Source of the DNA: an uncultured bacterium
Lineage (GTDB): Bacteria > Patescibacteriota > Minisyncoccia > UBA9983
Assembly (NCBI GenBank): GCA_913009575.1
Contig: CAJVWH010000005.1
Coordinates: 1 to 38,564 of the forward strand
DNA: 38,564 bases
Direction: 5' to 3'
Under the pieces are notes generated by a model. The model saw only the letters and a list, made by a program, of their open reading frames with translations. It did no database searches and was not told the DNA's origin. How positions within the stretch are numbered: position 1 is the stretch's first letter; each line of letters opens with the position of its first letter. Both the position numbers and the translations under genes were made by a program. This document shows positions 928 to 38,564 of this stretch, in pieces.

Positions 928-2046
928 ATGCGTTTCAAGAAAATATTTTTTGTACTTTTGATGGCGGGATTTTTGGCGGTTCCCGCTTTTGGTTTTGCCT
1001 CCGCGCCGCCGGCCATTACTTTATTCCACGGAGAAGAATGCCCGCACTGCCGCGCGGAGCGCGCCTTTTTGGGGGATTTGAAAAAAGAGATGCCAAACTT
1101 GAAGATCACGGAATATGAAGTTTGGCATAATGAAAAAAACAGAGAATTGTTTTTGAAAACGGCGAAAGAATTGGACATAAAAAGATTGGGCGTTCCGCTC
1201 ACGATAATCGGGGATAAATATTTAATCGGTTTTGACAAGCCGAAAAATTCAGGAAAAGAAATCCGCCAAATGCTCAAAAATTTGGAAGTCCAACCGTCAA
1301 ACGAAATTTCACATCCGCTTTTCGGAAAAATCAATATCAAAGATCTTTCGTTGCCGTTTTTGGCGGTTGTCTTGGGGACACTGGACGGTTTCAACCCCTG
1401 TTCAATGTGGGCGCTACTCGTCCTTTTGACTCTAGTAATCGCCACCGGTTCCCGCAAAAAAGTGTGGCTCGTGGGCGGCGTTTTCATACTCACTTCCGCG
1501 ATTTCCTATTTTCTTTTTATGGCTGCGTGGCTGAACGCTTTTATATTTATGGGTTATTTTTCTTTCGTCCAAATCGCGGTCGGCTTGGCGGCGATTATCG
1601 CCGGAATTTTTTCCATAAGGGAATTTTACAAGTTCAAGCCGAATGTTTGCGAAATTTCCACGCCGGAACAGCAGCAAAAATTAAGCGAGAGAATCAAAAA
1701 AGTTTTGCGTTCGGCCTCCTTGCCAATGATGCTGTTGGGCGTGGCGGCCATTGCCTTTTCCGTTAACCTTATTGAATTGCTTTGTTCCCTTGGAATCCCC
1801 GTCGTCTTCACGAAAACACTTGCCATGCATCATTTGGCGGTGTGGAAGTATTATGGATACATCGGATTTTATGATTTTTTCTACATGCTGGACGATATTA
1901 TTATCGTCGTGATAGCGGGTTTTTCAATGAAATTTTTTCATCTTAATTCCAAATATTCCCGCTGGTCCCGCCTCGTCGCCGGGATCTTGATGCTCATTCT
2001 CGGAGCCATTTTTCTCCTCAAGCCCGAGATTCTTATGTTTGGGTAA
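928..2046 (+). CDS. Thioredoxin-like domain (CPHC) fused to CcdA/DsbD-like transmembrane domain
   Basis: Signal/TM N-terminus, HGEECPHCRAE motif, then six or so TM segments with DGFNPC and ELLCSLGIPV cysteines typical of CcdA. Confidence 0.85.
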   Translation: MRFKKIFFVLLMAGFLAVPAFGFASAPPAITLFHGEECPHCRAERAFLGDLKKEMPNLKITEYEVWHNEKNRELFLKTAKELDIKRLGVPLTIIGDKYLIGFDKPKNSGKEIRQMLKNLEVQPSNEISHPLFGKINIKDLSLPFLAVVLGTLDGFNPCSMWALLVLLTLVIATGSRKKVWLVGGVFILTSAISYFLFMAAWLNAFIFMGYFSFVQIAVGLAAIIAGIFSIREFYKFKPNVCEISTPEQQQKLSERIKKVLRSASLPMMLLGVAAIAFSVNLIELLCSLGIPVVFTKTLAMHHLAVWKYYGYIGFYDFFYMLDDIIIVVIAGFSMKFFHLNSKYSRWSRLVAGILMLILGAIFLLKPEILMFG

Positions 2047-2090
2047 ATTTTCGGCTTTACATTTTTTTTAATTCAATTACAATAATTAGC

Positions 2091-2309
2091 ATGAAAAGAC
2101 AATTTACGGCAATTTATAAAAAAAGCGGAAGGTGGTATATTGGCTGGATAGAAGAAATCCCTGGCGTGAATACGCAGGGCAAGACCTTGAAAGAAGCAAA
2201 AGAAAATTTGAAAGAAGCGCTGTTTTTAATTCTTGAAACCAACCGCTTGATGAATAAACCGAGAGGCAGGCAAAGAATTATAAGGGAGCCATTAATCCTT
2301 GCCGTTTAA
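2091..2309 (+). CDS. hicB: HicB-family antitoxin
   Basis: FTAIYKKSGRWYIGWIEEIPGVNTQGKTLKEAKENLKEAL HicB-like fold signature; adjacent to HicA. Confidence 0.85.
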   Translation: MKRQFTAIYKKSGRWYIGWIEEIPGVNTQGKTLKEAKENLKEALFLILETNRLMNKPRGRQRIIREPLILAV

Positions 2310-2503
2310 TGAAAAGAGTTGATTTAATCAGGCATCTTGCAAAAGAGGGTTGTATCTTTGTTCGGGAAGGCGCCAATCACAGCGTCTTTTTTAATCCAAT
2401 AATGCGAAGGTCGTCAACAATTCCTCGGCATAATGAAATTGATAAGTTTTTGGCAAGAAAAATCTGCCGCGACCTCGGAATAGTAGAAATTAAAGGTTCT
2501 TAA
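2309..2503 (+). CDS. hicA: HicA-family mRNA interferase toxin
   Basis: MKRVDLIRHLAKEGC..REGANHSVFFNP..RRSSTIPRHNEI..ARKICRDLGI; catalytic His context present. Confidence 0.9.
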   Translation: MKRVDLIRHLAKEGCIFVREGANHSVFFNPIMRRSSTIPRHNEIDKFLARKICRDLGIVEIKGS

Positions 2504-2505
2504 TC

Positions 2506-2541
2506 TTCTTCCTCAAGCCCGAACTGCTGATGCTTGGGTAA
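2506..2541 (+). pseudogene. Remnant of 3' end of Trx-CcdA-like gene (tail copy B)
   Basis: ttc ttc ctc aag ccc gaa ctg ctg atg ctt ggg taa = FFLKPELLMLG*, matching the C-terminus of the 928-2046 gene (FLLKPEILMFG*). Confidence 0.7.
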
Positions 2542-2651
2542 AAATTTATTTTAATTCTAAAATTTTTCCAAAGTTAACATTAAACTTTTACTTATCCACA
2601 AATTTTAGTTTGCAGAAATAATTTTACCGGGGTAAAATTGATAATTGAAAC

Positions 2652-2711
2652 GCAAAATACTGAAAATTAAAAAAGGAGGTGATGAATTAAATATTTTAAA
2701 AAGTATTTTGC
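2652..2711 (+). promoter_or_regulatory. Stem-loop presenting a perfect anti-SD complement
   Basis: gcaaaatact (2652-2661) / agtattttgc (2702-2711) inverted repeat enclosing aaaaaaggaggtgatgaattaa. Confidence 0.45.
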
Positions 2712-2754
2712 AATTTTGTTCTTTGAGAAATAAAATAAAAAACTAGGAGGAAAA

Positions 2755-3753
2755 ATGAAACGTTCATCTAGAAAAACTTTATTTGCGCTCACTGTTATTA
2801 CTGTTATAGTTTTGCTATTGGTGATAACAAGTACAAGTTCATTGGCAACAAAATTGCCTTTTCTTGAGGATGGGAAGCTTTACAAATCTCGTGTGGGAGA
2901 CCCCACCAGCTTGTCAAGGGCAGAAATTGCTTCCAATGTATGGAAAGTGCTTGATTATGACCAAGAGATAAATATGCTCCTTTATATTACCAAACCGAAA
3001 GAATGGGGACGTGTTGATGGAAATCTTTGGTTGCTGGATACCACGAATTGGACAGACAAGGAAGTCGCGACCGGCGTGATCGGCGCTCAGTTGTCTCCAG
3101 GCGGAGATATGATTGTAATTTGGAACAAAGACCATGAAATATGGCTTATTTCTGCGGACGGAATACCCGAGGAGAAAATTGGCATTCATGGGGCGGCGCC
3201 AATTTTTTCTCATGACGGCAGATATATCGCTTACGAAAAACTGCCAGATTCTTCTTTTGACGGCGCAGAACAAAGTTTGTTTGAATTTGCTCAGGGAATA
3301 GCGATATATGATTTGATGACCGGGCAAGAGATGGTATTAACGCAAGCAGAGCATGGGGAAGATTTTGCGCCTGTTGGCTTTTCGCAAGGTATGAAAAGGA
3401 TTTACTTCAATTCCACAAGAGGAGGGATCGCATCTCTATGGTCTGTCAATCTAGATGGTTCGGATTTAAGACAAGAGACTAATAGCGGTTTTGGAGTGAA
3501 AGCAAAAGGCAGACCGATACCAGTGTTAAGTCAAAACGCGATTTGGTCATCTAACAAAAAAATAGCCGTCTCGTCTATCGGAACGGCAAAAGAAATATGG
3601 ATATTTCATTTTGGAGATAGCGGCGAGTTAAGGAATGCTAAACTTTTAACAGGCGGGGAATCTCCTGAATGGTTGATTAAAGACAAAAGGATTGCTTTCC
3701 GTGTAATTTATAACGGCAAAAGCAAGTGGCAAACGATGGATATTCAACAATAA
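2755..3753 (+). CDS. TolB/PD40-like beta-propeller secreted or membrane-anchored protein
   Basis: N-terminal TM/signal, repeated LSPGGDM / FSHDGRYIAYE / WSVNLDGSDLRQET blades; SD aggagg upstream. Confidence 0.7.
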   Translation: MKRSSRKTLFALTVITVIVLLLVITSTSSLATKLPFLEDGKLYKSRVGDPTSLSRAEIASNVWKVLDYDQEINMLLYITKPKEWGRVDGNLWLLDTTNWTDKEVATGVIGAQLSPGGDMIVIWNKDHEIWLISADGIPEEKIGIHGAAPIFSHDGRYIAYEKLPDSSFDGAEQSLFEFAQGIAIYDLMTGQEMVLTQAEHGEDFAPVGFSQGMKRIYFNSTRGGIASLWSVNLDGSDLRQETNSGFGVKAKGRPIPVLSQNAIWSSNKKIAVSSIGTAKEIWIFHFGDSGELRNAKLLTGGESPEWLIKDKRIAFRVIYNGKSKWQTMDIQQ

Positions 3754-3780
3754 GCCAAATAACAAAGAAGGAGGATGTAA

Positions 3781-4374
3781 ATGAAAAAGACAAAGATCTT
3801 TTTAGTTTTTGTTTTTCTGTTGATGATGCCGGTGCTTTCTCTAAATAATGCCAATGCCACTACACTATATCGCCTTCCGCTAGCCTCAAATCCTGGTTAC
3901 AATGCTTGGTTTGACCACAATGCATCCGTGGGTTCCGAGTTGCGCTATGATTGCGTAACAAATTTTAGTTACGACAATCATCATGGCACTGATTTTGCTG
4001 CAAGTTTTGGCACCTCTATTTATTCGGGTGCAGCAGGATCACTCTATTACAGAGTTGATAACTGCCCTGACGGTTCGCAACCATCATGCGGAAGTTATTA
4101 TGGCAACCATGTTCGTTTGTGGCATGCTGATGGTCGAGTAACTATCTACGCGCATATGAGGCAATGGACACCAATCTGGTATCAGAGTGTATTATGCGGC
4201 GTATACATTGGACAATCCGGAAATTCGGGGCAGTCATCAGGCCCCCATCTTCATTTTGAGTTATGGCAGAATACTGGAATAGGAACACGGCTAGATTTTT
4301 TTGGAGGGAATTGTAATTCTCCTAGTTATTGGGTTAATCAAAATGGTGGTTGGCCCACCACTCAATGTCAATAA
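3781..4374 (+). CDS. Secreted M23 (LytM) family peptidase
   Basis: Signal peptide, HHGTDFAA and SGPHLHFELW zinc-site motifs; SD aaggagg upstream. Confidence 0.92.
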   Translation: MKKTKIFLVFVFLLMMPVLSLNNANATTLYRLPLASNPGYNAWFDHNASVGSELRYDCVTNFSYDNHHGTDFAASFGTSIYSGAAGSLYYRVDNCPDGSQPSCGSYYGNHVRLWHADGRVTIYAHMRQWTPIWYQSVLCGVYIGQSGNSGQSSGPHLHFELWQNTGIGTRLDFFGGNCNSPSYWVNQNGGWPTTQCQ

Positions 4375-4400
4375 AGATTTTAAAAACAATTAAAATCTCA

Positions 4401-4434
4401 AAGGCGGGTTGAAATATATCAACTCGCCTTTTCT
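4401..4434 (+). terminator. Intrinsic terminator
   Basis: aaggcgggttga-aatata-tcaactcgcctt stem (one G-U pair) followed by ttctt. Confidence 0.8.
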
Positions 4435-4507
4435 TATCGCTGGCATCCTGATGCTCGTTCTCGGAGCCGTTTTTCTCCTTAAGCCGGAACTGCTGATGTT
4501 TGGGTAG
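4433..4507 (+). pseudogene. Remnant of 3' end of Trx-CcdA-like gene (tail copy C)
   Basis: Translates LIAGILMLVLGAVFLLKPELLMFG* versus LVAGILMLILGAIFLLKPEILMFG* at 1972-2046; roughly 80% nucleotide identity by eye over 75 nt. Confidence 0.85.
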
Positions 4508-4552
4508 GCTTGCCTTGACTCTTATTTTTTGAATTGATAAGATAAGAGCATT

Positions 4553-4798
4553 ATGAATGCCCTTACCATTCCCAAAAAATTAATAAAGAATGACGATTTA
4601 GTGATTATTCCTCGCAGAGAATACGAGAAGTTTTTGCGTATTTTTAAGATGATCCCAAAAAGCCAATGGTGGTTTTGGAGCAAGGAATGGCAGGCAAAAG
4701 AAATGGAGGCGGAAAAAGATATCAAATCAAAGAAATTAAGCGGACCCTACAAAGCAGCCAAAGATTTAAAAATGGCTTTGGATAATTTGAAAAGATAA
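4553..4798 (+). CDS. Putative antitoxin of type II TA pair
   Basis: Short ORF with VIIPRREYEKFLR N-terminus directly upstream of a RelE/ParE-like toxin. Confidence 0.6.
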   Translation: MNALTIPKKLIKNDDLVIIPRREYEKFLRIFKMIPKSQWWFWSKEWQAKEMEAEKDIKSKKLSGPYKAAKDLKMALDNLKR

Positions 4799-4804
4799 AT
4801 CAAT

Positions 4805-5062
4805 ATGCGGCTCTTTTTCACTAAGTCTTTTGAAAGAGATTATAAAAAACTCCCTACAAAAATCCAAAAGCAATTAGATAAACAACTTACTTTTCTCTTA
4901 ACAAACTCTAAATATCCATCATTGCGTATAAAAAAGATGGAGGGATATTTTGATATTTTAGAGGGTCGTATTAGCAAGAATTATCGGTTTACTTTTCAAA
5001 TTAAGAAAGAGGCATATTATATCCACCGCGCCGGCACTCATAAAATACTTAACAATCCTTGA
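4805..5062 (+). CDS. RelE/ParE-superfamily toxin
   Basis: FFTKSFERDYKKLPTKIQKQLDKQL...LRIKKMEGYFDILEGRISKNYRFTFQI. Confidence 0.8.
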   Translation: MRLFFTKSFERDYKKLPTKIQKQLDKQLTFLLTNSKYPSLRIKKMEGYFDILEGRISKNYRFTFQIKKEAYYIHRAGTHKILNNP

Positions 5063-5127: not shown

Positions 5128-5568
5128 ATGGCTTTATTTGACGTTTTTAAAAAGAAAAAAGAGACGGCCCGTTTTGAAAGAAAACAGAAAGAAAAAGTTG
5201 AATCAAAAAAAGGACCGCAAGAAGAAGAAAAAAAAACAAAGGACTTGAAAGAGGCCGCTGATTTCGTGGCGCCGGTGAAAAAATCAAAACCCGAAGGGTA
5301 TGCCGCCAAGGTTTTAATCGGTCCCCACATCACCGAAAAATCAACTGATTTGGGCAAGCAAGGCACATATGTTTTCAAGATTAAGTCCTTGGCTAATAAA
5401 GTGATGGTAAAACAGGCGATTAAGGAGGCATATGGAGTGAGGCCAAAAAAGGTTAACATTAGTTTTTCTCCCGCAAAAACAAGGTTTATCCGCGGAAAAC
5501 ACGGAACAAAATCAGGGTTCAAAAAAGCCATGGTTTATTTGAAAAAAGGAGACAAAATAGAGATATAA
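5128..5568 (+). CDS. rplW: 50S ribosomal protein L23 with charged N-terminal extension
   Basis: LIGPHITEKSTDLGKQGTYVFKI...KQAIKEAYGVRPKKVN; about 50-aa Lys/Glu-rich N-terminal region. Confidence 0.92.
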   Translation: MALFDVFKKKKETARFERKQKEKVESKKGPQEEEKKTKDLKEAADFVAPVKKSKPEGYAAKVLIGPHITEKSTDLGKQGTYVFKIKSLANKVMVKQAIKEAYGVRPKKVNISFSPAKTRFIRGKHGTKSGFKKAMVYLKKGDKIEI

Positions 5569-5570
5569 TT

Positions 5571-6428
5571 ATGAAGCGCTACAAGCCGACAACTCCATCA
5601 AGAAGGCATATGACGGGCATAAACTATCGGGATGTTTTGACTTATCCCGCCGGGAGGTGTAAGTCAAAGCCGGAAAAATCTTTAACAAAGGGATTTAAGC
5701 GAGCGAAAGGAAGAAATTCTGCCGGCAGGATTACGGTTCGGCATAAAGGAGGGGGATCGAAAAGATTATACAGACAAATTAGTTTTAAATATGACAAGCG
5801 GGATGTTCCGGCAACCATTAAAACCATTGAGTATGATCCGAACAGAAGCGGATTTATTGCACTTGTTGTTTATGCCGACGGAGAAAAAAGGTATGTTCTC
5901 GCGCCGGGAAGAGTTAAGGTCGGCGATAAAATTATTTCTTCGGAAAAAGCGGAAGTGAAGGAAGGAAACAGTCTTCCGCTCAGTAAGATTCCCGTCGGGT
6001 CTTTTGTCTATAATATAGAGTTGAAGCCGGATGGAGGAGCAAAGATTGGAAGATCTGCGGGAAATTACGCGGAGATAATCGCCCATGACAAGAATTACGC
6101 ACTCCTTAAACTTCCTTCGGGTGAAACGAGAAAAGTTCTTGAAAAGGCGTGGGCAAGCATCGGACAGGTTTCAAACGAAGAATATCGCTTGATAACGATT
6201 GGCAAGGCGGGACGCTCAAGGTGGATGGGGAAAAGGCCGACAGTGCGCGGTTCGGCGATGAATCCCGTTGATCATCCTTTTGGGGGAGGTGAAGGAAAGG
6301 CCGGAGCCGGAATGAGAAGGCCGAAAAATAAATGGGGAAAAGGAGTGAGGGGCGTAAAAACGCGCAAGAAGAAAAAGTATTCAAATGTTTTTATTGTAAG
6401 CAGAAGGAAAAAGAAGAAGAAAAAATAA
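5571..6428 (+). CDS. rplB: 50S ribosomal protein L2
   Basis: [42 protein letters not shown]. Confidence 0.98.
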
Positions 6429-7146: not shown

Positions 7147-7797
7147 ATGAGTAAGACAGTTCATCCATACGCATTTAGAATAGGAGTAATTCGGGGCTGG
7201 AAGTCACGCTGGTTTAATGTTAAAAAATACAGACACTTTTTAAAAACAGATGTTTTAATCAGAGAATGGCTTGAAAAGAAATTAAGAGGAATGTATATTG
7301 AATCAATTGATATGGAAAGATCGCCTAATATTTTCCATTTAATTATCAAAACATCAAGGCCGGGATTATTGATAGGACGTAAGGGTGAGGGCTCTGAAAA
7401 GTTAAAGTCTGAGATAAAAAAGAAACTTGAGAAAATCAAAGCGGAGATTCCAAGAGAAATAAAATTGACGGTTGAAGAGGTGCGCTCACCTGAGATGCGC
7501 GCTAAAATTGTTTCTCAAATGGTTGCCGAAAATCTTGAAAAAAGAATGCCTTTCAGACGTATTATGAAACAAATGATGGAAAAAGTTATGGCGAATAAAG
7601 AAGTTGAAGGCGCAAAAATAGCTTTGTCTGGCAGATTGGGGGGAACGGAAATGAGCAGAAGAGAATGGTTGAAAAAGGGTAGAATTCCCTTGCAGACATT
7701 GCGTGCAAATGTTGATTTTGCGCGTGAACGCGCTCATTTGCCGTATGGCGATATTGGAATAAAAGTTTGGATTTATAGGGGTGAATTATTAAAATAA
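7147..7797 (+). CDS. rpsC: 30S ribosomal protein S3
   Basis: [21 protein letters not shown] domain [26 protein letters not shown]. Confidence 0.97.
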
Positions 7798-7798
7798 A

Positions 7799-8218
7799 AT
7801 GGCATTATTTCCCAAAAAAGTAAAATTCAGAAAGTGGCAGAAAACAAGAAGAAACCCTAAAAAGAAACAAATTGCCACACGAGGAGCAACCCTTGCCTTT
7901 GGTTCTTTTGGGTTAAAATCCTGCGAACCGAAATGGATTAAGGCAAATCAAATTGAGGCGGCGCGGCGCGCAATGTCGCGCTTCGCGCAAAAGACGGGAA
8001 AAATATGGATACGTGTTTTTCCTGATAGGCCGATAACCGCCAAACCTGCGGAAGTTAAAATGGGAAAAGGTAAGGGTGATCCGGTTGGTTATGTCGCTCC
8101 GGTAAGGACGGGAACCATTATTTTTGAAGTTGACGGAATGGCTGAAGACGCGGCGCGTGAGGCATTGCGCAAAGCTGGTGCGAAATTGCCGTTAAAAACT
8201 AAGATTATAAGCCGATAA
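7799..8218 (+). CDS. rplP: 50S ribosomal protein L16
   Basis: [68 protein letters not shown]. Confidence 0.97.
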
Positions 8219-8223
8219 ATATT

Positions 8224-8457
8224 ATGCCAAAAAAGAAATTAAAAGGAGAAGTGGTTTCTGACGCGATGAACAAGACCGTCGTGGTTTTGGTTAATCGTTA
8301 TACTAAACATCCAAAATATAAAAAATATGTCCGCACCGGCAAAAAATATAAAGCACATGATGAAAAGAATGAATACAAGAAAGGGAACAAAGTCGTTATT
8401 GAAGAATGCAGGCCGATTTCAAAAGACAAACATTTCAGAATTATTAATGAATCCTGA
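8224..8457 (+). CDS. rpsQ: 30S ribosomal protein S17
   Basis: LKGEVVSDAMNKTVVVLVNRYTKHPKYKKYVRTGKKYKAHDEKNEYKKGNKVVIEECRPISKDKHFRI. Confidence 0.95.
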   Translation: MPKKKLKGEVVSDAMNKTVVVLVNRYTKHPKYKKYVRTGKKYKAHDEKNEYKKGNKVVIEECRPISKDKHFRIINES

Positions 8458-8526
8458 TTGATGTAATTGAAATTTATTTAGAATAATTGGAACAAGCGAA
8501 GCAATAGAACAAGCAGAATATTTACC

Positions 8527-8898
8527 ATGATTCAAACAGAAACAAAACTTAACGTGGCGGATAATAGCGGAGCGAAAATCGTTCAAGTTATTAAAGTATT
8601 GGGAGGGAGCCGGAGGCGCTATGCGCGCATCGGCGACCTTGTCGTTATTTCGGTAAAATCAGCCGAACCGAGAAAAATTGTGAAGAAGAAGGAGGTGCTC
8701 CATGCCCTGGTTGTGAGACAAAGGCAGCCTTTCAGGAGAAAAGACGGTTCCTATATCCGTTTTGACGAGAACGCCGCAGTCATTATTGAAAAAGGCAAAA
8801 AAGAACCCAAGGGCGGAAGAATTTTCGGACCCATCCCTCGCGAGATTCAAGAAAAAGGTTATAGTAAAATAATTTCGTTGGCGCCGGAGGTGGTTTAG
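8527..8898 (+). CDS. rplN: 50S ribosomal protein L14
   Basis: [37 protein letters not shown]. Confidence 0.98.
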
Positions 8899-8924
8899 AA
8901 AAATAAGGAGTAAGTAAAATTGGC

Positions 8925-9230
8925 ATGAATATAAAAATTAAAGATACGGTAAAAATAATTTCAGGCAAAGACAAGGGTAAAACCGGGAAGGTTACTCATG
9001 TTTTTCCCGATAAAAATAGAATTGTCGTTGATGGGGTGAACATCAATAAGAAGCATACGAAACCGAAAATGCAGGGGCAAAAAGGGCAGGTTGTCCAGAT
9101 GCCGATGCCTATTGCCGCCTCCAACGCGATGATTTTGTGTTCTTCCTGCAATAAGCCGACCAGAATCGGCAAAAAGCTCATCGGTTCAAAACGCGTCCGC
9201 GTCTGCAAAAAATGCGCCGGAGAACTCTAA
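8925..9230 (+). CDS. rplX: 50S ribosomal protein L24
   Basis: IKDTVKIISGKDKGKTGKVTHVFPDKNRIVVDGVNINKKHTKP (KOW). Confidence 0.96.
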   Translation: MNIKIKDTVKIISGKDKGKTGKVTHVFPDKNRIVVDGVNINKKHTKPKMQGQKGQVVQMPMPIAASNAMILCSSCNKPTRIGKKLIGSKRVRVCKKCAGEL

Positions 9231-9323
9231 ATAATATCTTGTTTGTCCATTGATACCTATTTCCGCCTATCGCTCCGGATGGATGATGGTTGGAAATAAT
9301 TTGTTTGTGTTATAATAATTACA

Positions 9324-11057
9324 ATGAGGCGCGGAGGTTTTTCTCTCATTGAAACTCTTATCGGAACCGCTTTGATGCTGGTTGTTTTTGTTTCCATTTT
9401 CGGAGTTTTTAATATGGGTATTAAGATTGTCGGCAAGTCCAAAGCGAAAGCCGGAGCGATTGCGCTTGCCACGGAAAGAATGGAGTTGATAAGAAATCTT
9501 CCCTATAAGGATGTCGGGACGGCCGGCGGATTGGTCCCGGGGAATATACCCCAAACAGAATCTATTGTTTTGAACGGAATTAATTATACCCGCTCGGTGT
9601 TTGTCCAGTATGTTGACGACCCGAAAGACGGCCTTGACGCGAATGATGAAAACGGCGTCACCGCCGACTATAAAATCGCAAGAGTGGAGGTAAATTGGCC
9701 GGGCGCCGCCAGCCCGGTCATTTTTGTTTCCAATATCATCCCCAAGGGCATTGAGACCGTTGCCGGAGGGGGAACGCTCAAACTTAATGTTTTTGACGCA
9801 AGCGCCCTCCCTGTGGCGTCGGCGCAAGTGCATATTGAAAATCCAAACACCGACCCGCCGGTTTCCACCGATGTTTTTACAAACTCGCAGGGTAAACTTA
9901 TTTTTCCGGGGGTCGCCACATCCTCCGGCTATGAAATTACCGTTACAAAAGACGGCTACAGCGCCGCGCAAACTTACGGCGCCGATTCTTACAACGTTAA
10001 TCCGGATCCCGGGCACCTTACGATTCTTGAGGGGAAAACAACGGAAGCGAGTTTTGTAATTGACAAATTGAGCGTGAAAACAATAAGAACGTGGAAACCC
10101 GTGGGCGGTTTTACTTGGTATGATTATTTTGACGACTGGAACAAAGTTTCAACTTCCTCAAACATTTCCATAAGCGGCGGACGCGCCGCGCTGGCGGAAC
10201 AGGCGACCTCTTCTTATTTCAGCAGCGGCTTTCTGATGTCATTGGACCTCGGCGGCATTTCCAATCTTGTCAATTGGGGAGAATTTTCATGGAATGACAA
10301 CGAGCCGGCAAGCACGACAATTAAATACCAAGTGATGCATTATCAGGGCTCCGGCTTAGAGCCTGTTCCCGACTCTGATTTGCCGGGGAATGAGGCCGGT
10401 TTTGAAAATTCTCCGATTGACCTCACCGGACTTTCAACAAGCACTTATCCGACATTGCGTTTGATGGCCGATTTCAGCACCGATAACACCAGTTCAACTC
10501 CCGCGCTATTGGACTGGAAAATAACATGGAACGCCGGTCCCGACCCCCTTCCGAACATTCCGTTTCATATGCGGGGAGAAAAAACAATCGGCACCGATGC
10601 GAGTGGCGATGCGATTTATAAATATTCAAAAGATCTCTCCACCGGCGCTGGAGGGCAATTGGGAATAAATAATTTGGAATTTGACGTGTATAATATAAGT
10701 ATTGATGGCATTTCAACCGGTTATGACATATCGGAATCCTGTCCTTTCCAGCCGGTTAACATTTTGCCGGACACGACGAACACCACTGACTTGTATTTGG
10801 TCCCCCACGCCGACAATACCCTTTTGGTCGGAGTTGAGACCGGGTCCGGCGGTATGCTTGAGGACGCGAATGTCCGCCTTTATAAGACGGGATATAACGA
10901 AAGCAAAACCGCTTCCGCTTGCGGCCAGGCCTTCTTCACTCCGCTTTCATCAGGTTCCTATTCAATGGAAGTTTCAAAGAATGGTTATGAGACATCCACT
11001 TCAACACTGAGTATCAGCGGCCAAAAAACATTAGAAGTAATTTTGAATGAATTATGA
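9324..11057 (+). CDS. Large prepilin-like protein with carboxypeptidase-regulatory-like domains
   Basis: MRRGGFSLIETLIGTALMLVVF N-methylation motif; two Ig-like regulatory domains (LKLNVFDASALPVASAQVHI..., TLLVGVETGSGGMLEDANVRLYKTGY...). Confidence 0.85.
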   Translation: MRRGGFSLIETLIGTALMLVVFVSIFGVFNMGIKIVGKSKAKAGAIALATERMELIRNLPYKDVGTAGGLVPGNIPQTESIVLNGINYTRSVFVQYVDDPKDGLDANDENGVTADYKIARVEVNWPGAASPVIFVSNIIPKGIETVAGGGTLKLNVFDASALPVASAQVHIENPNTDPPVSTDVFTNSQGKLIFPGVATSSGYEITVTKDGYSAAQTYGADSYNVNPDPGHLTILEGKTTEASFVIDKLSVKTIRTWKPVGGFTWYDYFDDWNKVSTSSNISISGGRAALAEQATSSYFSSGFLMSLDLGGISNLVNWGEFSWNDNEPASTTIKYQVMHYQGSGLEPVPDSDLPGNEAGFENSPIDLTGLSTSTYPTLRLMADFSTDNTSSTPALLDWKITWNAGPDPLPNIPFHMRGEKTIGTDASGDAIYKYSKDLSTGAGGQLGINNLEFDVYNISIDGISTGYDISESCPFQPVNILPDTTNTTDLYLVPHADNTLLVGVETGSGGMLEDANVRLYKTGYNESKTASACGQAFFTPLSSGSYSMEVSKNGYETSTSTLSISGQKTLEVILNEL

Positions 11058-11665
11058 GCCCCGTAAAAAAACAAACATCAAATACCGGGTTTACACTCGT
11101 TGAAACGCTTGCCGTTATAGCGATTACCGCTTTGGTTTTTGCCGCCGTTTCTTGGGCAATCACTTCTTTTTATCGCGTTAACAGTTATATCATTCAACAG
11201 TCACTGGCGGTTAACAGCGCGAGGAGTGGTGTTGAACGAATGGTGCGGGAAATAAGGGAAGCGGCATATTCCGATACGGGCGCTTATCCCATTGTGAGCG
11301 CCAGCAGCACGGAATTTATTTTTTACAGCGATATCAACCGCAACAACAACGTGGAAAAAGTGAGATATTCGCTGGAAGGTTCTGATTTTGAGAGGGGTGT
11401 GATTGAAGCGAGCGGAGACCCGCCGGTTTACAATCCCGCCGACGAAACGGCAAAAGTTCTGTCCGCGTACGTACGCAATTCCGAGAGCCAGCCGGTTTTT
11501 ACTTATTTTGATTCTTCCGGAAACCAGATTGCGGACTTGAGCAATGTGAGCGGCATCACGCTGGTAAAGGTGAGATTAATTGTTAATGCCGCGGAGAGCC
11601 GGACGCCCGACGAATTCACCCTCCGTTCAACCGCGCAAATAAGAAATCTGAAAACAAACTTATGA
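11054..11665 (+). CDS. Type IV prepilin-like (PilW/PulJ-type) protein
   Basis: NTGFTLVETLAVIAITALVFAAVSW motif; ATGA overlap with upstream gene. Confidence 0.85.
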   Translation: MSPVKKQTSNTGFTLVETLAVIAITALVFAAVSWAITSFYRVNSYIIQQSLAVNSARSGVERMVREIREAAYSDTGAYPIVSASSTEFIFYSDINRNNNVEKVRYSLEGSDFERGVIEASGDPPVYNPADETAKVLSAYVRNSESQPVFTYFDSSGNQIADLSNVSGITLVKVRLIVNAAESRTPDEFTLRSTAQIRNLKTNL

Positions 11666-17723: not shown

Positions 17724-19202
17724 ATGAGTCAAAGATTGATGATGATTTTTTTGGCTGGTTTTATTGGCGGGGTAATGCTCCGTTCTTTTGTAAATTTCGG
17801 TCGGGCGTTTGCCGGGCTTTTTATTTTACTCGGCATAATTTTTATGCTTGTTAGACTTGTTAGACACTCGGTGTCTAACACTAAGATTTTTTTGTATATT
17901 GCGATTTTTTTGATTGCGGCCGGCTTTGGTATGGCGCGTTATGAAATTAAAGATACCTCTCCGGATTTGAGCCGGTTTGAATCAGTAATCGGTCGCGGCG
18001 GACAAGTTGAGTTAGACGGACTTGTCGTTGATGAGCCGGACGAGCGGGAAAATTACACTCGGCTTGTTGTTGAGTCCCCGCCTAGCGGGGCAGGCGGGGC
18101 GAAAATTCTTATTTACGCCCAACATTATCCGGAGTTTAAATATGGCAACGAGATAAAAGTGTCCGGCGTTCTTAGGAGACCGAAAAATATGGATGATTCG
18201 TTTGACTGGCGGGCGTATCTGGCGAAAGATGATATTTATTATGAAATGTTTTATCCGAAAATCGGATTGACTGCAGACGGAAAAGGAAATTGGATTAAGC
18301 GCCAATTATTCGCATTCAAGGAAAAATATCTTGGCGCTTTGGCAAAAGTTATTCCCGAGCCCGAATCCGCTTTTATGGGCGGACTCACGGTGGGCGCAAA
18401 GCGGGCGATAGGGAAGAGTTTGTTGGAGGATTTCAGAAAGACGGGCATTATCCATATCGTCGTGCTGTCCGGATACAACATTTCACTTGTGGCGGACAGT
18501 ATTATGCGCGGCTTGAGTTTTCTTCCAGGAGTTTTCGGAATAAGTTTGGGCGTCTTGGGAATTATTCTTTTCGCCGTAATGACAGGCGCTTCCGCTACCG
18601 TGGTGCGCGCTTCACTAATGGCGTTGTTGGTTATTTTGGCGCGGGCGACGGGCAGGATTTACGAAATAACCTGGGCACTTTTTCTCACGGGCTTTTTTAT
18701 GGTTTTGCATAATCCGAAAATCTTGCGTTTTGACACGGGATTTCAGCTTTCTTTTTTAGCGACTTTCGCCCTTATCTGGCTCGCTCCGCACATTGAGAAA
18801 AAATTGCATTTCGTTCCGAAAAAATTCAAGTTTCGCGAAATCGCGTCCGCCACAATCTCCGCCCAGATTTTCGTCTTGCCCTTGCTTCTCTATAAGATGG
18901 GGATGTTTTCCGTTGTGAGCATCCCCGTCAATCTTTTGGTTTTGCTTTTTGTGCCGGTGACAATGCTTTTTGGTTTTCTCACCGGAATAATCGGAATGTT
19001 TTCCGCAATTTTAAGCGTTCCCTTCGGTTGGATTAGTTTTGTTTTTTTGCAGTATGAACTATGGATAGTGGAAGGTTTCGCCAAACTTCCATTTGCTTCG
19101 TTTAATGTCCCGCGCTTTCCCCTCGCGGCGATGCTGATTATGTACGCGATTTATGGGATAATTATTTATAAATTGAATGGAAAAAATAAAAAAGCAATTT
19201 AA
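17724..19202 (+). CDS. comEC: ComEC/Rec2 competence membrane domain protein
   Basis: GLTVGAKRAIGKSLLEDFRKTGIIHIVVLSGYNISLVADSI; polytopic membrane protein. Confidence 0.92.
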   Translation: MSQRLMMIFLAGFIGGVMLRSFVNFGRAFAGLFILLGIIFMLVRLVRHSVSNTKIFLYIAIFLIAAGFGMARYEIKDTSPDLSRFESVIGRGGQVELDGLVVDEPDERENYTRLVVESPPSGAGGAKILIYAQHYPEFKYGNEIKVSGVLRRPKNMDDSFDWRAYLAKDDIYYEMFYPKIGLTADGKGNWIKRQLFAFKEKYLGALAKVIPEPESAFMGGLTVGAKRAIGKSLLEDFRKTGIIHIVVLSGYNISLVADSIMRGLSFLPGVFGISLGVLGIILFAVMTGASATVVRASLMALLVILARATGRIYEITWALFLTGFFMVLHNPKILRFDTGFQLSFLATFALIWLAPHIEKKLHFVPKKFKFREIASATISAQIFVLPLLLYKMGMFSVVSIPVNLLVLLFVPVTMLFGFLTGIIGMFSAILSVPFGWISFVFLQYELWIVEGFAKLPFASFNVPRFPLAAMLIMYAIYGIIIYKLNGKNKKAI

Positions 19203-38448: not shown

Positions 38449-38564
38449 AGATCGGAAGAGCGTCGTGTAGGGAAAGAGTGTAGATCTCGGTGGTCGCCGT
38501 ATCATTAAAAAAAAAAAAAGAGAACAACTATAAAGACCGCATACTAAATATAAAATCTATACCC
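38449..38564. other. Illumina P5 adapter read-through plus poly-A and junk; not genomic
   Basis: agatcggaagagcgtcgtgtagggaaagagtgtagatctcggtggtcgccgtatcatt at 38449-38506, then A-run and low-complexity tail. Confidence 0.98.

Follow-up and report, generated by a model that had tools for sequence, protein, structure and literature searches.

Headless copies of conserved gene 3' ends border small cargo segments in the S10 operon and at further genes of Patescibacteriota

Trx-CcdA and rplD tails in the analysed window

The window analysed here is a stretch of 38,564 nucleotides from an uncultured bacterium of the Patescibacteriota (Minisyncoccia, UBA9983; assembly GCA_913009575.1, contig CAJVWH010000005.1) and represents one contig (C5) of the metagenome-assembled genome (MAG) G000, which comprises 652 kb on 39 contigs. 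Its left part carries a Trx-CcdA-like gene, which in relatives is located inside the S10 operon between rplD (L4) and rplW (L23). In the window the 3' end of this gene is found again twice downstream in the form of headless remnants, with cargo genes between the copies. The following features, all on the + strand, were assigned:

187-854, +: C-terminal part of a cargo gene ("pre" cargo), truncated by the contig start
865-908, +: headless 3' tail of rplD (L4), IISNPKESLAVWK and stop, followed by the native rplD-Trx spacer
928-2046, +: Trx-CcdA-like gene, 372 aa, between rplD and rplW in relatives
1972-2046, +: tail A, the intact 3' end of Trx-CcdA
2091-2309, +: cargo 1, HicB-like antitoxin (UPF0150, E=2.8e-7, above cut-off)
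2309-2503, +: cargo 1, HicA toxin (HicA_toxin, E=3.2e-11, passes the Pfam cut-off)
2503-2541, +: tail B, headless Trx-CcdA remnant, 80% over 40 nt, 24/29 nt ungapped as far as the stop
2755-3753, +: cargo 2, TolB-like beta-propeller protein, 332 aa (weak PD40 match, below cut-off)
3781-4374, +: cargo 2, M23 peptidase, 197 aa (Peptidase_M23, E=1.8e-18, above cut-off)
4412-4507, +: tail C, headless Trx-CcdA remnant, 76% over 95 nt (last 25 codons from 4433)
4553-4798, +: cargo 3, antitoxin-like gene (58% identity to the gene that immediately follows secY in genome G002)
4805-5062, +: cargo 3, ParE/RelE-like toxin (ParE match below cut-off; 66% identity to the toxin that follows secY in G002)
5128-5568, +: rplW (L23), the native right neighbour of Trx-CcdA in relatives

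An earlier sequence-only reading of this DNA had claimed that the Trx-CcdA 3' end recurs as the headless copies B and C, which was confirmed by direct-repeat comparison and by tblastn. The coordinates of tail A were correct, while tail B begins at about 2503 (formerly 2506) and the similarity of tail C reaches back to about 4412 (formerly 4433). Segment 1951-2045 of A and segment 4412-4506 of C are 76% identical over 95 nt; within the last 75 nt they agree at 61 positions, so that the earlier count of 14 differences holds, and these are distributed over the codon positions 1/2/3 as 5/0/9. A and B share 80% over 40 nt, and A and C 78% across the same 40 nt. No gene body was found in front of tails B and C. 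The stop codon of HicA directly abuts tail B, and tail C sits directly 3' of a hairpin that comes after the M23 gene. The closest protein match of tail C is the Trx tail of genus g3 (91.7%). A chance match or a widespread unrelated repeat, the latter named in the same reading as an objection, was ruled out, since tblastn of the tail against the whole MAG returned C (E=2e-9) and otherwise A alone.

The cargo blocks are arranged as previously described: HicBA between A and B, where both matches lie above the cut-off, the TolB-like/M23 block between B and C and a RelE/ParE toxin-antitoxin (TA) pair after C. For the last two blocks the position stood, and the assignment holds for M23, the TolB-like (PD40) and ParE matches being below the cut-off. 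No tail remnant is present 3' of the cargo 3 toxin. The TolB-like gene was not found in the other 10 genomes of the family and no donor was identified. To the three Trx tails, which had been seen as bracketing the cargo, a further tail has to be added, that of rplD at 865-908.

The rplD remnant has a cargo gene on its 5' side and the native rplD-Trx spacer and Trx start on its 3' side, identical to contig C28 of the same MAG, which carries the intact rplD and thereby the only one of the MAG. The "pre" cargo shares homology (66% over 202 aa) with the end of a 758-aa protein that is carried as cargo behind rplD in G005, a genome of another genus. In both genomes the homologous cargo ends gap-free at the rplD remnant, and 105/152 nt before the junction are identical. 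Comparison of the remnant with the intact rplD end, for G000 with the copy on C28, revealed 0 (G000) and 1 (G005) of 42 differing positions within the genome and 10 of 42 between the two genera. Because the copies match within each genome and differ between the genera although the insertion junction is shared, the rplD repeats still recombine; either gene conversion homogenises the copies or the cassette re-entered via its tail.

Contig C28 (locus L033) harbors two further features. Directly behind the intact rplD lies a second Trx-CcdA allele (5677-6120) with 88% DNA identity to the window copy and with rplD tail and spacer identical to the window; an adapter/contig end cuts it after residue 138. 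This fragment (residues 1-138) is all that the proposed search for tandem full-length Trx-CcdA paralogs yielded, and none was found in relatives. C28 and C5 represent either one chromosome or two strains. Between rplC and rplD (1509-4851) a cargo of a 903-aa protein (beta-helix and NlpC/P60-like by eye) and a 234-aa protein is inserted without an rplC tail remnant, part of which recurs at the end of contig C6 with 99.5% over 195 nt. In G002 (locus L040, 9284-9311) rplE directly follows Trx; this stretch lacks rplW through rplX, and rplB is encoded on a small contig.

Uninserted counterparts of these sites were detected in relatives. An empty rplD-Trx adjacency is present on C28 and in G008 and G002, and secY and adk are direct neighbours in G000, G001, G003, G004 and G006. 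The single-tail Trx-rplW adjacency, which the earlier reading had suggested looking for, was found in G010, G005, G004 and one allele of G006. The MAG G006 holds both forms of the Trx 3' end: on contig C13 Trx is followed by the leader and L23, on contig C2 cargo is placed between Trx and the leader of L23. The outer flanks of the two alleles are identical, the 22 nt that precede the Trx stop contain five differences, and L23 leader and N-terminus differ. Such a pair is predicted by import from a diverged donor via homologous recombination, and it demonstrates that the Trx end came with the incoming DNA. The L23 N-termini of G006 (loci L035 and L034) are different in that about 35 charged-linker residues are absent from one of them.

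The same layout at other genes and in other genomes

All frequencies refer to two genomes in full, one half of a third genome and the S10 loci of eleven. Second copies of gene 3' ends were searched for by a scan that demanded a stop codon at matching positions of the two copies; it misses copies ending short of the stop and still catches those extending beyond it. In total, ten headless tails in the order gene, cargo, headless tail were identified in four genomes. In this MAG these are Trx B and C and the tails of rplD, fusA and a P-type ATPase gene; further cases are rplD in G005 (second genus), secY in G002 (third genus) and, in the complete genome G023 (a single contig from another family of the same class), a comF-like gene, ftsK and a gene for an RNase of the metallo-beta-lactamase (MBL) fold. 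The copies range from 27 to about 312 nt, the fusA remnant comprising 104 codons, and the ftsK insert in G023 has a length of only about 130 nt without an open reading frame (ORF). Wherever the gene is fully assembled, it is intact and its remnant headless. The same scan with the same threshold found no headless tails in 65 control loci from other bacteria (non-Patescibacteria; 1.03 Mb), a control which, being made of short stretches and not a phylogenetic sample, demonstrates rarity and not absence.

An unbiased survey of direct repeats gave a corresponding picture. At gene 3' ends the overshoot of the repeat past the stop was either about 0 (-2 to +3), as for Trx, fusA, ATPase, rplD, MBL, ftsK, comF and a NUDIX gene, or more than 50 nt; the latter group consists mostly of non-coding repeats and includes secY, as its aligned leader follows. 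Matching cases at 5' ends were hardly seen at all. General genome noise was rejected on this overshoot pattern and the scarcity of 5'-end cases, and a Trx-CcdA hotspot, as had been suspected, on the cases of rplD, fusA, ATPase and secY, to which three more genes can be added. An inherited fusA duplication was likewise rejected, the other family genomes listed carrying one full-length copy.

Repeats at G000:C24, G000:C3 and L111 were excluded as non-coding or intron/terminator-like. On C24 (L068, 3106-3311 and 5387-5590) a non-coding repeat of about 200 nt (hairpin and leader, 95%) precedes radical-SAM genes, and related copies are found on contig C26. The reverse strand of C3 (L048, L089; about 7700-11500) looks like 23S rRNA, with an ORF for a LAGLIDADG-type homing endonuclease and short repeats within intron-like sequence. 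In L111 (88-1628), a Patescibacteria contig, a short repeat occurs three times, and two of the copies bracket a fused MNT/HEPN-like gene on the opposite strand. In G004 (L100, 7471-7753 and 10631-10913) two GIY-YIG-like genes of 86 aa, 81% alike, are inserted in a signalling gene cluster and are bounded by the matching inverted ends CCCGTTAGAG / CTCTAACGGG.

For nine pairs both copies were in hand. In 9/9 the similarity extends to the last sense codon and no further, the following 30 nt looking unrelated; the stop codons themselves differ in 5/9. The 32 differences between the copies are distributed over codon positions 1/2/3 as 8/1/23 (chi-square p about 7e-6; summed by hand over few pairs, with Trx giving two comparisons that both use copy A). 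As the differences are found mainly at third positions, the copies diverged as functional gene ends, and B and C do not represent duplicates of A in decay; this bears out the earlier view of the tails as diverged alleles rather than random repeats. The tails share no common core sequence and the cargos no common gene. The TA blocks that follow Trx tail C and, in G002, secY have leaders that are alike, with a score that 1 of 2000 shuffles reached, and each leader starts at the stop codon of a different gene.

Probable import of donor gene ends and competing explanations

With moderate confidence, we regard the tails as target duplications from foreign DNA that integrated behind conserved genes, in which a donor gene end together with the donor neighbours was taken in from relatives by homologous recombination, with no integrase involved, and the product was trimmed later. 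A donor fragment consisting of the 3' part of a shared gene and the donor's downstream genes, the later cargo, would enter the cell, probably by natural transformation, and recombine with the resident gene via the shared 3' segment, either by a single exchange of a circularised fragment or with one homologous and one non-homologous end. The resident gene would then end in donor codons, the donor stop and the donor neighbours, and its own headless tail would be left beyond the cargo, in contact with the native downstream gene. Repeated events at one gene would stack the cargos with the newest one nearest to the gene, for the window in the order C, then B, then A, and redundant DNA between cargo and tail would be trimmed afterwards. 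Transformation as the route, the exchange topology and this order are what we infer. Import explains both the form of the remnant, a headless 3' end attached to the native downstream gene, and the limit of similarity at the coding end: the last sense codon is where the match is expected to stop, because the coding end is shared and the DNA following it is foreign. Of the two models in the earlier reading, the one in which the gene end arrives with the incoming DNA agrees best with the data, among them the empty sites and the G006 alleles with their Trx tails differing in the last 22 nt.

Uptake of DNA by this group is plausible. The window encodes a ComEC/competence domain (18384-19172, + strand; PF03772; DNA uptake) outside the cassettes, and the domain is present in 11/11 genomes of the family. 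In cultured Saccharibacteria comEC-dependent natural transformation has been proven (PMC10633639), and in E. coli circularised fragments led by single crossover to duplications of 109-950 bp of the homologous gene end (PMC3240628).

Several observations speak against such an import. No donors of the cassettes were found, and tails of 27-45 nt are short for recombination of the RecA type. The filled G006 site has no remnant; therefore remnants mark only some insertions. Unlike the rplD tails, the Trx tails are not homogenised. Assembly is incomplete for the left fusA copy and for the rplD copy immediately 5' of the window cargo. Similar TA leaders at the stops of two different genes are not predicted by a simple transfer of donor neighbours, and their likeness may derive from homologous promoters. 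Finally, one remnant in G023 keeps head and tail, and some tails may be relics of a full second allele.

The last point leads to an explanation by decay, which is possible but doubtful. Here whole units of gene and cargo are inserted beside the resident gene and the redundant resident copy is deleted except for its tail, whose survival is due to its position next to the leader of the following gene and which plays no part in the insertion. G023 provides the best examples: a 48-codon NUDIX remnant of head and tail lies behind a NUDIX gene and, next to it, a HAD cargo gene, another gene has a head-and-tail remnant upstream, and of two duplicates (294668-296025 and 558184-558863) the second copy retains only in-frame head and tail codons, for which reason the repeats at 558218 and 296025 were counted towards decay as internally deleted duplicates. 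Internal deletion, or trimming, of a redundant allele therefore does occur. The length of the fusA remnant (104 codons) and the two cargo stop codons that abut tails directly fit as well. On the other hand, neither body nor head fragments of Trx-CcdA, rplD or fusA precede the respective remnant, intact tandem pairs were seen in none of the relatives, and a plain tandem duplication of gene and cargo would surround the remnant with cargo left and right, an arrangement that was not observed. Decay of tandem paralogs had already been considered in the earlier reading, and of this idea the NUDIX remnant is what stands, an intact tandem pair of Trx-CcdA being present in no relative. Import and trimming are compatible ideas, and the usual sequence of events may be import with trimming afterwards.

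It is unlikely that the class has a dedicated family of small cassettes which insert at stop codons of conserved genes, rebuild the gene end with a tail of their own and are mobilised either through recombination of the tail copies with each other or by a recombinase acting in trans; if this were true, the 3' ends of ribosomal-operon genes would serve permanently as a platform for the exchange of toxin-antitoxin and surface genes. In its stricter form, a mobile system likened to islands integrating in gene 3' ends, with an unrecognised trans-acting recombinase that targets gene ends and a cassette that carries a restoring tail, the idea is very unlikely, even though similarity ends exactly at the last sense codon in all nine pairs, similar TA leaders start at the stops of two unrelated genes and the MAG encodes two tyrosine recombinases (PF00589). 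The genes of the latter lie on contigs other than the window's, and the former statement that no integrase is visible holds locally; the ORF lists of the cassettes contain no recombinase inside or adjoining any of them, serine recombinases not having been searched for. Cargos without a common gene and tails without a common core also argue against such a system, and Trx tails of only 76-84% similarity are unlike att cores. The least probable explanation is an assembly artefact from chimeric contigs or a strain mixture with untrimmed adapters, to which the Illumina adapter at many G000 contig ends and the two Trx alleles in G000 could point. The same layout is found in three independent assemblies, one of them a complete single contig, and the G023 cases of this complete genome exclude an artefact for the pattern; the adapter matches in the window are confined to its two ends and all cargo frames are open. 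The untrimmed adapter is located at 108-186 and 38449-38527, as it is at the ends of most other G000 contigs, and ORFs near the window ends (e.g., 36-270) are partly adapter.

Relation to known insertions and significance

The phenomenon resembles insertion with long target duplication; a wholly undescribed insertion mode, as had been considered in the sequence-only reading, is not supported. Papers on this type credit it to Nobusato et al. (2000) and Furuta et al. (2010) and describe it for restriction-modification genes of Helicobacter pylori, a naturally competent host, with no known mobile element and with direct target copies of variable length seen against an uninserted strain (PMC1643837, PMC3154945, PMC3031569, PMC3874152). 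The likeness comprises the uninserted site in relatives (here rplD-Trx, Trx-rplW and secY-adk), the long and variable direct copies (here 27 to about 312 nt) and the far copy running into native downstream DNA, here demonstrated for the rplD remnant. Differences from the type as portrayed there concern the cargo, which consists of restriction-modification genes in H. pylori and of HicBA, a ParE/RelE-like pair, TolB-like plus M23 and others here, the copies, which here derive from the 3' ends of conserved genes, extend no further than the last sense codon and partly represent diverged alleles and partly homogenised ones, and the host, which here belongs to the Patescibacteria.

Restoration of a gene end by incoming DNA is known from prophage e14 in icd of E. 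coli and from further elements with integration sites in gene 3' ends, where the native tail is displaced to the far side. In the E. coli record e14 starts at 1196209, inside icd (1195123-1196373). The resident gene is intact in our cases too, but e14 is a prophage of 15 kb with the integrase gene intE, whereas the cargos described here have about 0.1 to 2.5 kb and no recognised integrase. Moreover, an identical att core is expected at both ends of islands of the e14 type, in contrast to the gene-specific copies found here with their Trx representatives 76-84% alike. Compared with integron gene cassettes, which are characterised by attC sites and IntI, the cargos have junctions that differ from gene to gene instead of one common site. 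Single-crossover insertion-duplication and homology-facilitated illegitimate recombination (HFIR) have in common with our cases one homologous segment, foreign DNA beside it and a duplicated part of the gene end (PMC3240628). They are laboratory processes with constructed substrates, whereas the insertions here are natural, recurrent and at gene ends, and true HFIR yields deletions, not duplications. The layout is compatible with one homologous exchange and one non-homologous joint; donor sequences were not found.

Our literature searches found no description of an integrase-free entry of small blocks into Patescibacteria and nothing closer than insertion with long target duplication. DNA uptake (PMC10633639) and a large number of imported genes (PMC12455944) are on record for Patescibacteria. 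In these reduced genomes even the S10 and spc ribosomal operons tolerate cargo, namely behind rplD, Trx-CcdA and secY. In bacteria that are mostly unculturable, the remnants represent a readable scar of foreign-gene import: each of them marks one insertion and reveals the landing gene, a diverged tail preserves a sample of another allele, and the pattern can be counted in any genome by a simple scan.

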